DNA from: Natronorubrum thiooxidans
GTDB taxonomy: Archaea > Halobacteriota > Halobacteria > Halobacteriales > Natrialbaceae
DNA length: 64,000 nucleotides
Assembly: GCF_900156475.1 (NCBI RefSeq)
Contig: NZ_FTNR01000004.1
Coordinates: 62,001-126,000 of the forward strand
Direction of reading: 5' to 3'
Positions 2,513-39,295 of the stretch are shown here, one piece after another; positions within the stretch are counted from its first letter, which is position 1, and each line of letters opens with the position of its first letter. The notes under the pieces are model-generated. The model saw nothing but the letters and a program-made list of their open reading frames with translations, was not told where the DNA came from and did no database searches. The translations under genes were made by a program, and so were the position numbers.

Positions 2513-2614
2513 ACGCTACAATAACTAAGGGTTATAGAAAATGTTTTGGGTCGATTCCCAGTTCGCCGCTCTGTCTCTCGCAAGCGGGCGTGCCTGCGAC
2601 GGTCCGACGGAAAC

Positions 2615-2968
2615 TCAGTCCTCGTCGGGAACTTCGATGACCTCGACGACCGAAAGCGGGACGTCCCGCAGCGCGCCACCGACTTCGCTCTTTGCGATCC
2701 GGGAGGCGTGTTCCTCGCCGTCGGCGTTGAAGACCTCCATCTCGAGGCCGAGGCCGACGAGTGCGGTGTCGGCCGCAATAAACGCGGAGTCGAAGGGCTC
2801 GCCACAGGCCGGACAGCCCGTCGCCCCGACCTCGACTTCGACGTAGTCCATGTCTTCGCTGTTAAGTCGTTTTCCGGCTTCACTGACGGCGACACCGATC
2901 GCGTCGTCGATCTCGTCGACGTCACGAACCAGCCATGCCGCTTCCATCGCGACGATATAATTGGTCAT
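2615..2968 (-). CDS. DUF555 (UPF0212) family protein
   Basis: A 117-residue soluble acidic protein starting MTNYIVAMEAAWLVRDVDEI, the conserved N-terminus of the archaeal DUF555/UPF0212 family; usual length is about 115 residues. It has a CPACG motif in the middle (VGATGCPACGEPFDSAFIAA) that may hold a metal. The longer frame (to 3085) adds 39 arginine-rich residues with no family character and was rejected. A TATA-like AACTTATGG lies near 3083-3091 on the minus strand, which would leave a leader of roughly 90 nt. Function of the family is unknown. Confidence 0.85.
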   Translation of the reverse strand: MTNYIVAMEAAWLVRDVDEIDDAIGVAVSEAGKRLNSEDMDYVEVEVGATGCPACGEPFDSAFIAADTALVGLGLEMEVFNADGEEHASRIAKSEVGGALRDVPLSVVEVIEVPDED

Positions 2969-3281
2969 ATGTCGTGGTCGGTCCGGGGAACCACCTGTCT
3001 TGCGATTCGTCGCCAGCGTGGAAGCGGCGACTCGAACGTAGATTTGACGCGCCCGCGGTGCGCACGTGAGCCGGATGATGCCCATAAGTTACGAGAATTG
3101 TGCGAGTCGATTGTCACCTGCTTAGTCGGATCTCGCCTCGAGTCCGCCTCGAGTTGTCTCGAGTGTAACCACAGTTTAATCGCATGACTGCGGCGACCTC
3201 GCACCGAGTGAACAACCATTATGAACTGAGGATTTCAGTAATCTTTATATATACCCCTCGTCTGGGCCAGAGTGAACGTCG
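2969..3281. other. Divergent intergenic region, 313 bp
   Basis: Between the DUF555 gene (leftward) and a tiny membrane-protein gene (rightward). I see no convincing reading frame. Three CTCGAG hexamers fall within about 30 bp near 3134-3164, and the right end carries a clear TATA box for the rightward gene. A TATA-like sequence for DUF555 lies near 3083-3091. Confidence 0.6.
3244..3249 (+). promoter_or_regulatory. TATA box of the 56-residue membrane protein gene
   Basis: TTTATA within CTTTATATATACC. It predicts a start of transcription near 3272-3275, about 10 nt before the ATG at 3282. Confidence 0.55.
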
Positions 3282-3452
3282 ATGATATCCCGCGTGTACC
3301 ACGCGACCCTGTTCGCACTGTACCAACTGTGCATTGTGATCGGTATCGCCGCAATGCCACTCGCAATCGCCGCCCGCCAGGCTGGGGTTACCCTGCCAAT
3401 CCACCGCATCCTCGGAAACCTCGAGGAGGCCTACGAGGCCAGCCACACATAA
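3282..3452 (+). CDS. Small membrane protein, 56 residues
   Basis: A short frame starting MISRVYHATLFALYQLCIVI and ending EEAYEASHT. It has one hydrophobic stretch at about residues 9-30 followed by an amphipathic, charged tail, so it is probably a single-pass membrane microprotein. Support comes from the TATA box 33-38 nt upstream, haloarchaeal codon choice with GC at third positions, and a protein-like hydrophobicity pattern that its overlapping frames lack. It lies 149 bp upstream of psmB, which has its own promoter, so a link to the proteasome is unproven. Confidence 0.7.
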   Translation: MISRVYHATLFALYQLCIVIGIAAMPLAIAARQAGVTLPIHRILGNLEEAYEASHT

Positions 3453-3570
3453 TGGGATAACGCACACCGGGATCGAACCACACCAGTTCTGTCGTCGATC
3501 GTACTGCCGGACAGCCGCCGGTCTCTGTATCGGCTCGGAAAGCGGAAACCGCCGTGGTGACCGCCGGTGT

Positions 3571-36473: not shown

Positions 36474-36574
36474 TCCCAAGCGGGCCCGCCATGAAGCCCT
36501 CACGACCGCGGCTGATTTTCAGTTCTGGTACTCACGGGTAAAACGCAAAGAGGGCGCTCCGGCTTTCGGTTGGC

Positions 36575-39295
36575 ATGAACTACGGTCTCGACATCGGGCC
36601 GGACGCGATCCGGGTCGCTATCGACACGCCAGACGGGGTGATCCTCGAGTCGGCACCGGCCCGTGCCACACCGGCCGACGCGGAGACGGGGTCGGCGAGA
36701 GGCATCGACGCGGAACCCGGCGAACCGCTGCTCTCGAACGGTGTGCTGACTGCGGACAGCGACGTCGAGCCGGCGCTCGAGGCACGCCTCCAGGACGTTC
36801 TCGATCTCGACGACGCGAGCGACGGGCAGCTCTGTTATACCACGCCTGGAACACTGGTCGACGCGGCCGAACCGACCGACGCTCGACGTGATGCCGTCGG
36901 TGCGGTTCTCGCCGATCGCGGACTCGATGTGACACCGATCCACAGCGGGTTCGCCGTCGTCTACGACCAGTTCGCCGACGACAACTACACTGGCCTCGGC
37001 GTCCGTCTCGGCCCACAGACGACCAGCGTCGCACTGGCGTACTACGGCGTGCCTGCGGTGGCGTTTTCGCTTGCGAAAGGCAGCGACTGGGTCGTCGACC
37101 GGGCCGCCGACGACACGGATCACGAGCAGGCAGCGGTCGCGTCCGCGCTCGAGGCGTTCGCGCTCGACCCCGACGCGGCGACGGACGAGGTCGAGGCCGC
37201 ACTCACGACGGCGTTCGACGCACTGATCGGCGACCTCGCCGACGCGCTCGAGCGCGAAGCCGGGTCGGCTGATATCCAGCGAGGGTTGGCCGTGCCGCTT
37301 GCCGTCGCGGGACCGGACGCGGTCGAGGGCCTCGAATACCTTCTCGCCGGCCGCGTCGATAGCACACTCCCGATCTCGGTCCGCGATCCGCGACGCGCCG
37401 ACGAGCCGGCCGCAGGCGCTGCCAGAGGGGCGCTCGCGGCTGCGAAAGACGGCGTCGAAGCCCACGAGGCCGTGACGTGGTCGCCGGCTGACGCGGACGA
37501 CGGCGACGGAACCGATGGCACTGTGACAGTGACCAAGCCGACCGGCGAGACGACACTGACGTTCGACGACGCGCTCGATGGCGGAGCCGATGCGGACCGC
37601 GCTCGCGCGGACGACGCGATCGAGCAGTTATTCGATCGGCTCGCCGACCGAGACGACGAGATCCAGTCGATCCGGGCCGATCTCGAATCGGCGGTCGACG
37701 ATCTCGACGAACTCGATGCGCGGACGGCCAGCGCCGACGTAGTCGCGGCCCTCGAAGGCGACCTCGAGCGGATCGCCGAGGAACTGCGCGATCTCGAAGC
37801 CGAAAGCGCGCGCCATGCGAGCAAGCAAACGGTTTCGACCCTCGAAGGCAATCTCGAGACACTTTCGACCGCGTTCGACGGGGTCGAAGACGACGTCGGC
37901 GACCTCGAGTCAGCGTTGGAAGACGAATTCGACACGCTCGAGGCGATGATCGAAACCCTCGAGACGACGACGGCGGACGAGCGAGCGGCACTCGACGACC
38001 GAATCAGTGACCTCGTGGACGATCTCGACGGCGTTTCCGACTGCACTGACACGCTCGACGATCTCCTCGAGGCGCTTCGAACCGAGGTGGAGTCCCTCGA
38101 AACGACGACCGCATCGGCAGCCGACCTCGACGCCGTGACAGAAACCGTCTCGCGGCTCGACGACGACCTCGACACCGTTGGCGAAGACGTCGCTCGACTC
38201 GGGTCGCGATCTGATGGACTTGCCGGCCGGCTCGAGGAACAAGCGACTCGGATCGGCAGCGTCGCCGATCGACTCACGGCCCGCGCTGAGCAGGCCGACG
38301 AGAAACGGGCACAGCTCGAAGACGGCCTCGAGACGGTCGAAACGAGTTTCAAGGACGAACTCGGGACCGTCGAACGCGACCTCGAAACGATTACTGAACG
38401 GCTTGGCGATCTCGACGGGCGGATCGCCGAACTCGGTGGCGAACTCGAGACGACCGCCACTGCCCTCGAGGCTACCGGCGAGCGACTCGGCTCGACGGAG
38501 GATCGCGTGGGGGCGCTTGACGAGGCGCTAACCGACGTCCGCGAGCGTCTTCATGACCGAACCGACGATCTCGACGCCCGTCTCAAGACTGCTCGAGAGA
38601 CGATCACGACCCTCGAGGAAACGGCCGCTGACGACGCGCGGGTAGCCGCCGTCGAAGACGACCTGACAACGGTCGAGACGGTGGTGGCTGATCTGGAAGA
38701 CGACGTTTCGGCCGTCTCGGAAACCGTGGAAACGCTCGAGGAGCGGACGGCCCCAGTAGAGGCGGTCGAGGACCTCGAAACAGATCTCGACGGAGTCGAC
38801 GATGATATCGATTCCCTGACCGACAGCGTGCGCGCGCTCGAGGAGCGCGTCGACGAGACGATGATCGATCTTGAGGCCCGACTCGAGGACGCTACCGAAA
38901 CGATCGACGACGAGGTGACAGCGCTCGAGTGCCGTCTCGAGCGCACGGTCGAGGAAAGCGTCGACGACCTCGCGGCGACGCTCGACAGGGCTGACGATTC
39001 GACCGAAGCGCAGCTGTCGGCGATCGAGACCCGCGTCAGCGATCTCGAGTCCGCGATCGAGACTGACCGAGCGGACGACTTCGAAGCGATTCGAACCGAT
39101 CTCGAGACCGTACAGGATCAGATCGAGACGGATGCCGCTCCAGCTCTCGGCACGCAACTCGCCGCTGGTGGAGGCGGTGCCGGTGTCGTTGCAGGGAGCG
39201 TCGCTGCGCTTACCGGCGAGGCGACCGTCGGAATCGCCGCGGTCGTCGTCGGGGTGGTCCTGATCGCTGCGGTGATCGTTCGTGAGCACTCATAG
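36575..39295 (+). CDS. Actin/FtsA/Hsp70-like domain fused to a long coiled coil and a C-terminal membrane anchor
   Basis: A 906-residue acidic protein. Residues 1-290 follow the ASKHA (actin/Hsp70/FtsA) order: a phosphate-1-like MNYGLDIGPDAIRVAIDTPD, a phosphate-2-like GLGVRLGPQTTSVALAYYG near 140, KGSDWVVDRAA, and an adenosine-like LAVAGPDAVEGLEYLLAGR near 240 followed by AAGAARGALAAAKDG. The motif glycines and acids are partly altered, so ATP hydrolysis is uncertain. Residues 345-858 are almost continuous heptad-like coiled coil (LETTTASAADLDAVTETVSR style). Residues 860-902 form one or two membrane spans (AAVVVGVVLIAAVIV) before REHS. The build suggests a membrane-tethered filament or scaffold. 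No homologue name is recognised. The gene stands alone. Confidence 0.8.
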   Translation: MNYGLDIGPDAIRVAIDTPDGVILESAPARATPADAETGSARGIDAEPGEPLLSNGVLTADSDVEPALEARLQDVLDLDDASDGQLCYTTPGTLVDAAEPTDARRDAVGAVLADRGLDVTPIHSGFAVVYDQFADDNYTGLGVRLGPQTTSVALAYYGVPAVAFSLAKGSDWVVDRAADDTDHEQAAVASALEAFALDPDAATDEVEAALTTAFDALIGDLADALEREAGSADIQRGLAVPLAVAGPDAVEGLEYLLAGRVDSTLPISVRDPRRADEPAAGAARGALAAAKDGVEAHEAVTWSPADADDGDGTDGTVTVTKPTGETTLTFDDALDGGADADRARADDAIEQLFDRLADRDDEIQSIRADLESAVDDLDELDARTASADVVAALEGDLERIAEELRDLEAESARHASKQTVSTLEGNLETLSTAFDGVEDDVGDLESALEDEFDTLEAMIETLETTTADERAALDDRISDLVDDLDGVSDCTDTLDDLLEALRTEVESLETTTASAADLDAVTETVSRLDDDLDTVGEDVARLGSRSDGLAGRLEEQATRIGSVADRLTARAEQADEKRAQLEDGLETVETSFKDELGTVERDLETITERLGDLDGRIAELGGELETTATALEATGERLGSTEDRVGALDEALTDVRERLHDRTDDLDARLKTARETITTLEETAADDARVAAVEDDLTTVETVVADLEDDVSAVSETVETLEERTAPVEAVEDLETDLDGVDDDIDSLTDSVRALEERVDETMIDLEARLEDATETIDDEVTALECRLERTVEESVDDLAATLDRADDSTEAQLSAIETRVSDLESAIETDRADDFEAIRTDLETVQDQIETDAAPALGTQLAAGGGGAGVVAGSVAALTGEATVGIAAVVVGVVLIAAVIVREHS

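Follow-up and report, generated by a model that had tools for sequence, protein, structure and literature searches.

A second, long volactin of haloarchaea joins an actin-like head to a coiled-coil rod and a predicted membrane hairpin

One open reading frame in the 64,000-nucleotide stretch of Natronorubrum thiooxidans DNA analysed here (hereafter the window) raises the question of what an actin-like domain, a long coiled coil and a hydrophobic tail might be doing together in a single haloarchaeal protein. The initial annotation knew of no named archaeal cytoskeletal protein of this build, however the full 906-aa frame matches the Pfam family Volactin (PF25216) with an E-value of 1.1e-90, and judged by its sequence it is a second, fused volactin paralogue and no unnamed lineage. 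We are confident of this family assignment and of the anatomy of the protein, hereafter the long volactin, whose features are as follows.

36514..36553, forward strand: conserved upstream element, core TTTTCANNTCTGGTAYT, which begins 59 nt before the ATG
36575..39295, forward strand: long volactin gene encoding 906 aa, with the stop codon inside the coordinates; orthologues found
36575..37459, forward strand: volactin-family actin-like head, residues 1-295 (Pfam PF25216, E 1.6e-94 over residues 1-300)
36584..36601, forward strand: phosphate-1 motif GLDIGP, residues 4-9, with P in place of the T of DxGT
36944..36946, forward strand: S124 at the connect-1 position, aligned with Glu in all short volactins and with the Glu of IDEPMA in Caulobacter MreB
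36998..37027, forward strand: phosphate-2 motif GVRLGPQTTS, residues 142-151; GxG loop lost in the alignment
37295..37330, forward strand: adenosine motif region, residues 241-252; one residue fewer than in short volactin in the alignment
37460..37594, forward strand: acidic linker, residues 296-340, Gly/Asp-rich and without periodicity
37595..39148, forward strand: predicted coiled-coil rod, residues 341-858, from heptad periodicity against shuffles and coiled-coil family matches
39158..39217, forward strand: hydrophobic segment 1 of the predicted hairpin, residues 862-881, with AGGGGAGVVAG, the most conserved part of the tail
39227..39280, forward strand: hydrophobic segment 2 of the predicted hairpin, residues 885-902, followed by REHS, from hydropathy and tail comparison

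The head scores 304.8 bits against PF25216, whose gathering cut-off is 35; the best stretch places residues 44-290 on profile positions 72-321, and a second stretch spans the start of the protein. When the head was scanned alone against Pfam, Volactin was the sole family at E ≤ 1, and the FtsA, MreB and Hsp70 family profiles gave no match at that threshold. This match (E 1.6e-94) bears out the actin-like N-terminal domain that had been predicted, and the sequence blocks then singled out, GLDIGPDAIRVAI, GLGVRLGPQTTSVAL and AGPDAVEGLEYLL, correspond to three motifs of an actin-fold family, namely phosphate-1, phosphate-2 and adenosine. Volactin itself, VolA of Haloferax volcanii (HVO_2015), has a head of the same Pfam family with the same motif order, and an ordinary 360-aa volactin with about 33% identity to the long head is also encoded in the same genome, on another contig. 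Volactin is a single domain of about 325-400 aa with a connect-1 Glu, a phosphate-2 GxG loop and a DUF7139 neighbour, none of which holds for the long volactin, whereas the latter adds, in its 906 aa, a rod and a membrane hairpin that volactin lacks. The short volactins examined, at about 325-400 aa, agree with the initial annotation that volactin has no such tail.

Support for the actin fold of the head is indirect. A profile that combines short and long volactins picks out the structures of FtsA and of an actin-family protein (E 2e-4 and 6e-4), and a PDB search with the long heads alone returned no match. Fold searching with a head model built from three sequences (pLDDT 40, pTM 0.42) gave best matches that are mostly ASKHA proteins (PilM, Hsp70, FtsA, MreB and ParM), in line with the fold first suggested, but at TM-scores of about 0.3 from this pLDDT-40 model. 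Taken together, the profile links and the fold matches of a poor model support an actin fold, although not decisively.

The active site separates the two forms of volactin. The glutamate of the volactin INEG/IDEG motif aligns with the Glu of IDEPMA in Caulobacter MreB, which we take to be the catalytic connect-1 position. This residue is kept in 58 of 58 distinct short volactins, other orders of the phylum included, and in all 12 short heads of the alignment, whereas it is absent from every one of 83 long heads (78 aligned and five read by eye). Across the 78 aligned heads its place is taken by Lys (31), Arg (21), Thr (17), Ser (5), Gln (3) or Ala (1), and by Arg or Pro in the five long heads from outside the Natrialbaceae (loci L165-L169; genomes G137, G172, G158, G138 and G145). 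The phosphate-2 loop has lost its second Gly in 74 and its first Gly in 38 of the 78, and the adenosine loop is one residue short in all of them. Because the connect-1 Glu is lost, the phosphate-2 loop decayed and the adenosine loop shortened, ATP hydrolysis by the long head is unlikely. ATP binding without hydrolysis had been proposed at the outset; the altered residues fit the loss of hydrolysis, but since the phosphate-2 glycine loop is decayed in nearly all heads besides the loss of the Glu, even nucleotide binding is in doubt. Having S124 instead of Glu, the long form is best seen as a divergent paralogue and not as the VolA orthologue.

Volactin matches, one or more per genome, occur in 116 of 117 Natrialbaceae genomes. 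The long form, scored by counting those matches listed whose open frames span 649-1564 aa, is present in 84 of the 117 and missing from 33, and all 84 genes keep the architecture and are free of internal stops. It is a conserved paralogue of volactin with one copy per genome, and a short volactin accompanies it in nearly all genomes that have it. Confinement of the long form to Natrialbaceae was considered and dropped, as five genomes of two further haloarchaeal families encode divergent long volactins of 780-909 aa with a rod and a C-terminal hairpin; elsewhere in the order volactins are nearly all short, and the short form reaches other orders of the phylum. One genome (G239; contigs C3, C4 and C5) carries two short volactin copies of equal score, together with fragments.

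Placed in one tree, 78 long and 12 short heads fall into two separate classes with full support, and the split persists (100/98) when deep short heads and the five further long ones are added. Midpoint rooting was used and a number of the branches are long; one old duplication followed by losses would be the simplest reading of this tree, if not a proved one. Long heads diverge much faster, showing 38-54% identity to the head in the window between genera, as against 91-95% for short volactins; the residues kept in both classes show that the long head is under constraint.

Behind the head, hydrophobic periodicity was assessed by a simple Fourier test against shuffled sequences, not by a dedicated coiled-coil program. 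All 63-residue sub-windows starting at residues 379-652 have a period of 3.5-3.67 residues above shuffles (p ≤ 0.003), most of the flanking ones are likewise periodic, and 96% of those between head and tail reach p < 0.05; across 18 relatives, heptad-type periodicity is found in 82-100% of such sub-windows. Proline makes up 0.7% of the segment tested. The central coiled coil described in the initial annotation was confirmed by this periodicity, but it begins near residues 316-341 and not directly after residue 290. Many unrelated coiled-coil families match the rod with modest scores, as is usual among coiled coils, and SMC (66.8 against 729 bits), the crescentin rod (25.9 against 100) and EzrA (23.5 against 39.6) all fall below their family cut-offs. 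The rod sequence itself is poorly conserved, and in the 18 relatives, one of which is cut by a contig end, head and tail are separated by 331 to 925 residues. An origin of rod length by internal tandem duplication was rejected, since the repeats found are short and have the 60-85% similarity expected of heptads. If the rod formed one continuous helix of about 520-560 residues, at 0.15 nm per residue, it would be about 80 nm long.

The last 45 residues are hydrophobic, with a peak Kyte-Doolittle value of 2.98, and form two segments parted by TGEAT. Hydropathy and comparison of the tails reveal a conserved, C-terminal two-segment hydrophobic hairpin, which upholds the earlier interpretation of this region as a membrane anchor. 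The tail profile lies at the extreme C-terminus in 73 of 80 ORFs, the other 7 having a diverged hydrophobic ending or being cut by a contig end, and in relatives a basic residue usually lies close to the end of the tail. In the five long volactins outside Natrialbaceae the hairpin sequence differs and is unlike the AGGGGAG motif. A search with the tail in eight genomes gave a single weak match (E 1e-3) to an unrelated protein of genome G013, which we read as composition and set aside.

The long volactin gene lies between a gene for a MOSC-domain protein on its 5' side and a convergent MFS transporter gene on its 3' side, as identified by a Pfam scan of the window. Synteny comparison indicates that its neighbours are kept mainly inside the genus and found no conserved neighbour gene as a possible partner; neither this comparison nor the Pfam scan found division, pilus or archaellum genes linked to it. 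The core of the ~40-bp upstream element was found in 64 of 80 long-volactin loci, a count in which the search pattern itself enforces conservation of the core positions; conservation extends to positions that the pattern leaves free, but not to the sequence further upstream. The element has one match in the whole window and one per genome in the five genomes scanned, always before the long volactin. Viral contigs held no relative of the long volactin at the sensitivity used, and plasmids only four partial volactin-like matches, 30-31% identical (H1-H4; on large plasmids of Haloarcula and Natrinema), and mobility of the gene is thus not evident.

The short volactin has a neighbour of its own. 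A DUF7139 gene lies directly upstream of it at 49 of 53 loci (L002, with DUF7139 at 2569-3474 on the reverse strand, and most among L022-L032, L129-L154 and L194-L208). It encodes a protein with about four hydrophobic segments and a charged tail, which is a candidate membrane partner of volactin, and a search of the long-volactin loci gave no DUF7139 relative. Neither neighbouring locus number is mentioned in the main text of the paper on Haloferax volactin. At one locus (L170, genome G037), a 153-aa ORF from ~2165 runs in frame from the start of a DUF7139-like protein into the end of a volactin; it is apparently a deletion remnant, and no other volactin match was found in this genome.

We posit, at a probability of roughly 45%, that the long volactin is a volactin paralogue impaired in hydrolysis and tethered to the membrane, and that it anchors or caps filaments of volactin. 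The hairpin would be inserted in the cytoplasmic membrane so that both of its ends face the cell interior, and the rod would dimerise and keep the cytoplasmic head tens of nanometres off the membrane. The head, poor at ATP hydrolysis, would retain the volactin shape and join the end or side of ordinary volactin filaments of the same cell, and the protein as a whole would act as a non-cycling tether or cap fixing these filaments to the membrane. Volactin filaments have been reported to be dynamic and to touch the membrane by their tips through factors that are unknown (PMC10869688), which makes a tether or cap attractive. The conservation of the hydrophobic tail while rod length varies is what a tether would be expected to display, and as DUF7139 adjoins only the short volactin while the hairpin is found in the long one, the long form looks as though it brought along a membrane link of its own.

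The tether or cap role nevertheless remains tentative. Volactin is reported to be the sole identified actin homologue of Haloferax volcanii (PMC7617734), and we place the tether reading below even odds because Haloferax manages without a long form; since volactin tips are anchored there without it, and 33 of the 117 Natrialbaceae genomes lack it, the long volactin can be no general anchor. The fast divergence of the long heads (38-54% against 91-95%) would also be unexpected if the head had to fit volactin closely, and the lack of a conserved partner gene nearby argues in the same direction. No evidence was found for the segregation scaffold that the initial annotation had also considered.

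Other explanations draw on the same observations. Conservation as a single gene preceded by an element of its own, and a head at ~33% identity to volactin that forms a separate clade, could point to an independent membrane-attached cytoskeleton, in which the heads would self-polymerise slowly or without hydrolysis and the rods would set the distance to the membrane, apart from volactin; with the phosphate loops and the connect-1 Glu lost, however, nucleotide-driven polymerisation is unlikely, and we regard this explanation as rather improbable. We give a similarly low rating to an FtsA- or PilM-like adaptor, whose head would be a platform for a division, archaellum, pilus or signalling machine positioned by rod and hairpin. 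Decay of the active site is compatible with such a platform, PilM and FtsA are among the best fold matches of the head and the volactin profile matches a solved FtsA structure, but those fold matches come from a weak model (pLDDT 40, TM-scores of about 0.3), and no gene for a division, pilus or archaellum machine is linked to the long volactin.

The rod might instead do the work, as in an intermediate-filament-like or spacer protein with a vestigial or regulatory head: it makes up more than half of the protein, its length is highly variable and the active site has decayed. Every family having the long form nonetheless keeps a complete head with many invariant positions, while the rod sequence is poorly conserved, and we consider this quite unlikely. 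Spurious long ORFs are common in high-GC DNA, and a decayed active site could likewise suggest a chance ORF or a decaying pseudogene; conservation refutes this, given 84 Natrialbaceae genomes without internal stops, a conserved tail and the upstream element, and its probability is negligible.

Several known systems share features with the long volactin. Salactin of Halobacterium salinarum is a haloarchaeal filament protein with the actin fold that is probable for the long head too; it is described as having a disordered N-terminal tail and as being most similar to MamK and MreB, and the description includes neither a coiled coil nor a membrane hairpin (PMC10746226). MreB also has the actin fold that is probable for the long head, and its Caulobacter homologue served as the reference for active-site positions, but it consists of a single domain, its EP and DxGGGT motifs have been lost from the long volactin, and its family gave no Pfam match here. 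FtsA and PilM, bacterial membrane-linked actin-fold adaptors, have weak fold and profile similarity to the long head, however they possess no rod, and the head has no FtsA-family domain match; FtsA attaches to the membrane by a short amphipathic helix. Crescentin, EzrA and SMC-like proteins have a long coiled coil, and EzrA is also membrane-anchored, but they carry no actin-like head and match the rod only, below cut-offs. Among the papers covered by a literature search that mention volactin, the original volactin paper alone also mentions coiled coils and haloarchaea, and no description of the head-rod-hairpin architecture appeared among the titles and abstract openings covered, which include few subscription journals, so that prior notice is possible.

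The long volactin is a concrete candidate for the membrane-binding factor of volactin in one large haloarchaeal group, and the product of the DUF7139 gene beside ordinary volactin is a second candidate. More speculatively, many haloarchaea may have a two-actin system, in which a dynamic, hydrolysing volactin would be capped or tethered by a non-hydrolysing, membrane-anchored long volactin through a coiled-coil spacer of species-specific length. If so, these cells would possess a dedicated actin-to-membrane linker derived from an actin, and we know of no other described cytoskeleton in which such a linker is made from actin itself. The long volactins also offer a natural series of rods differing in length.
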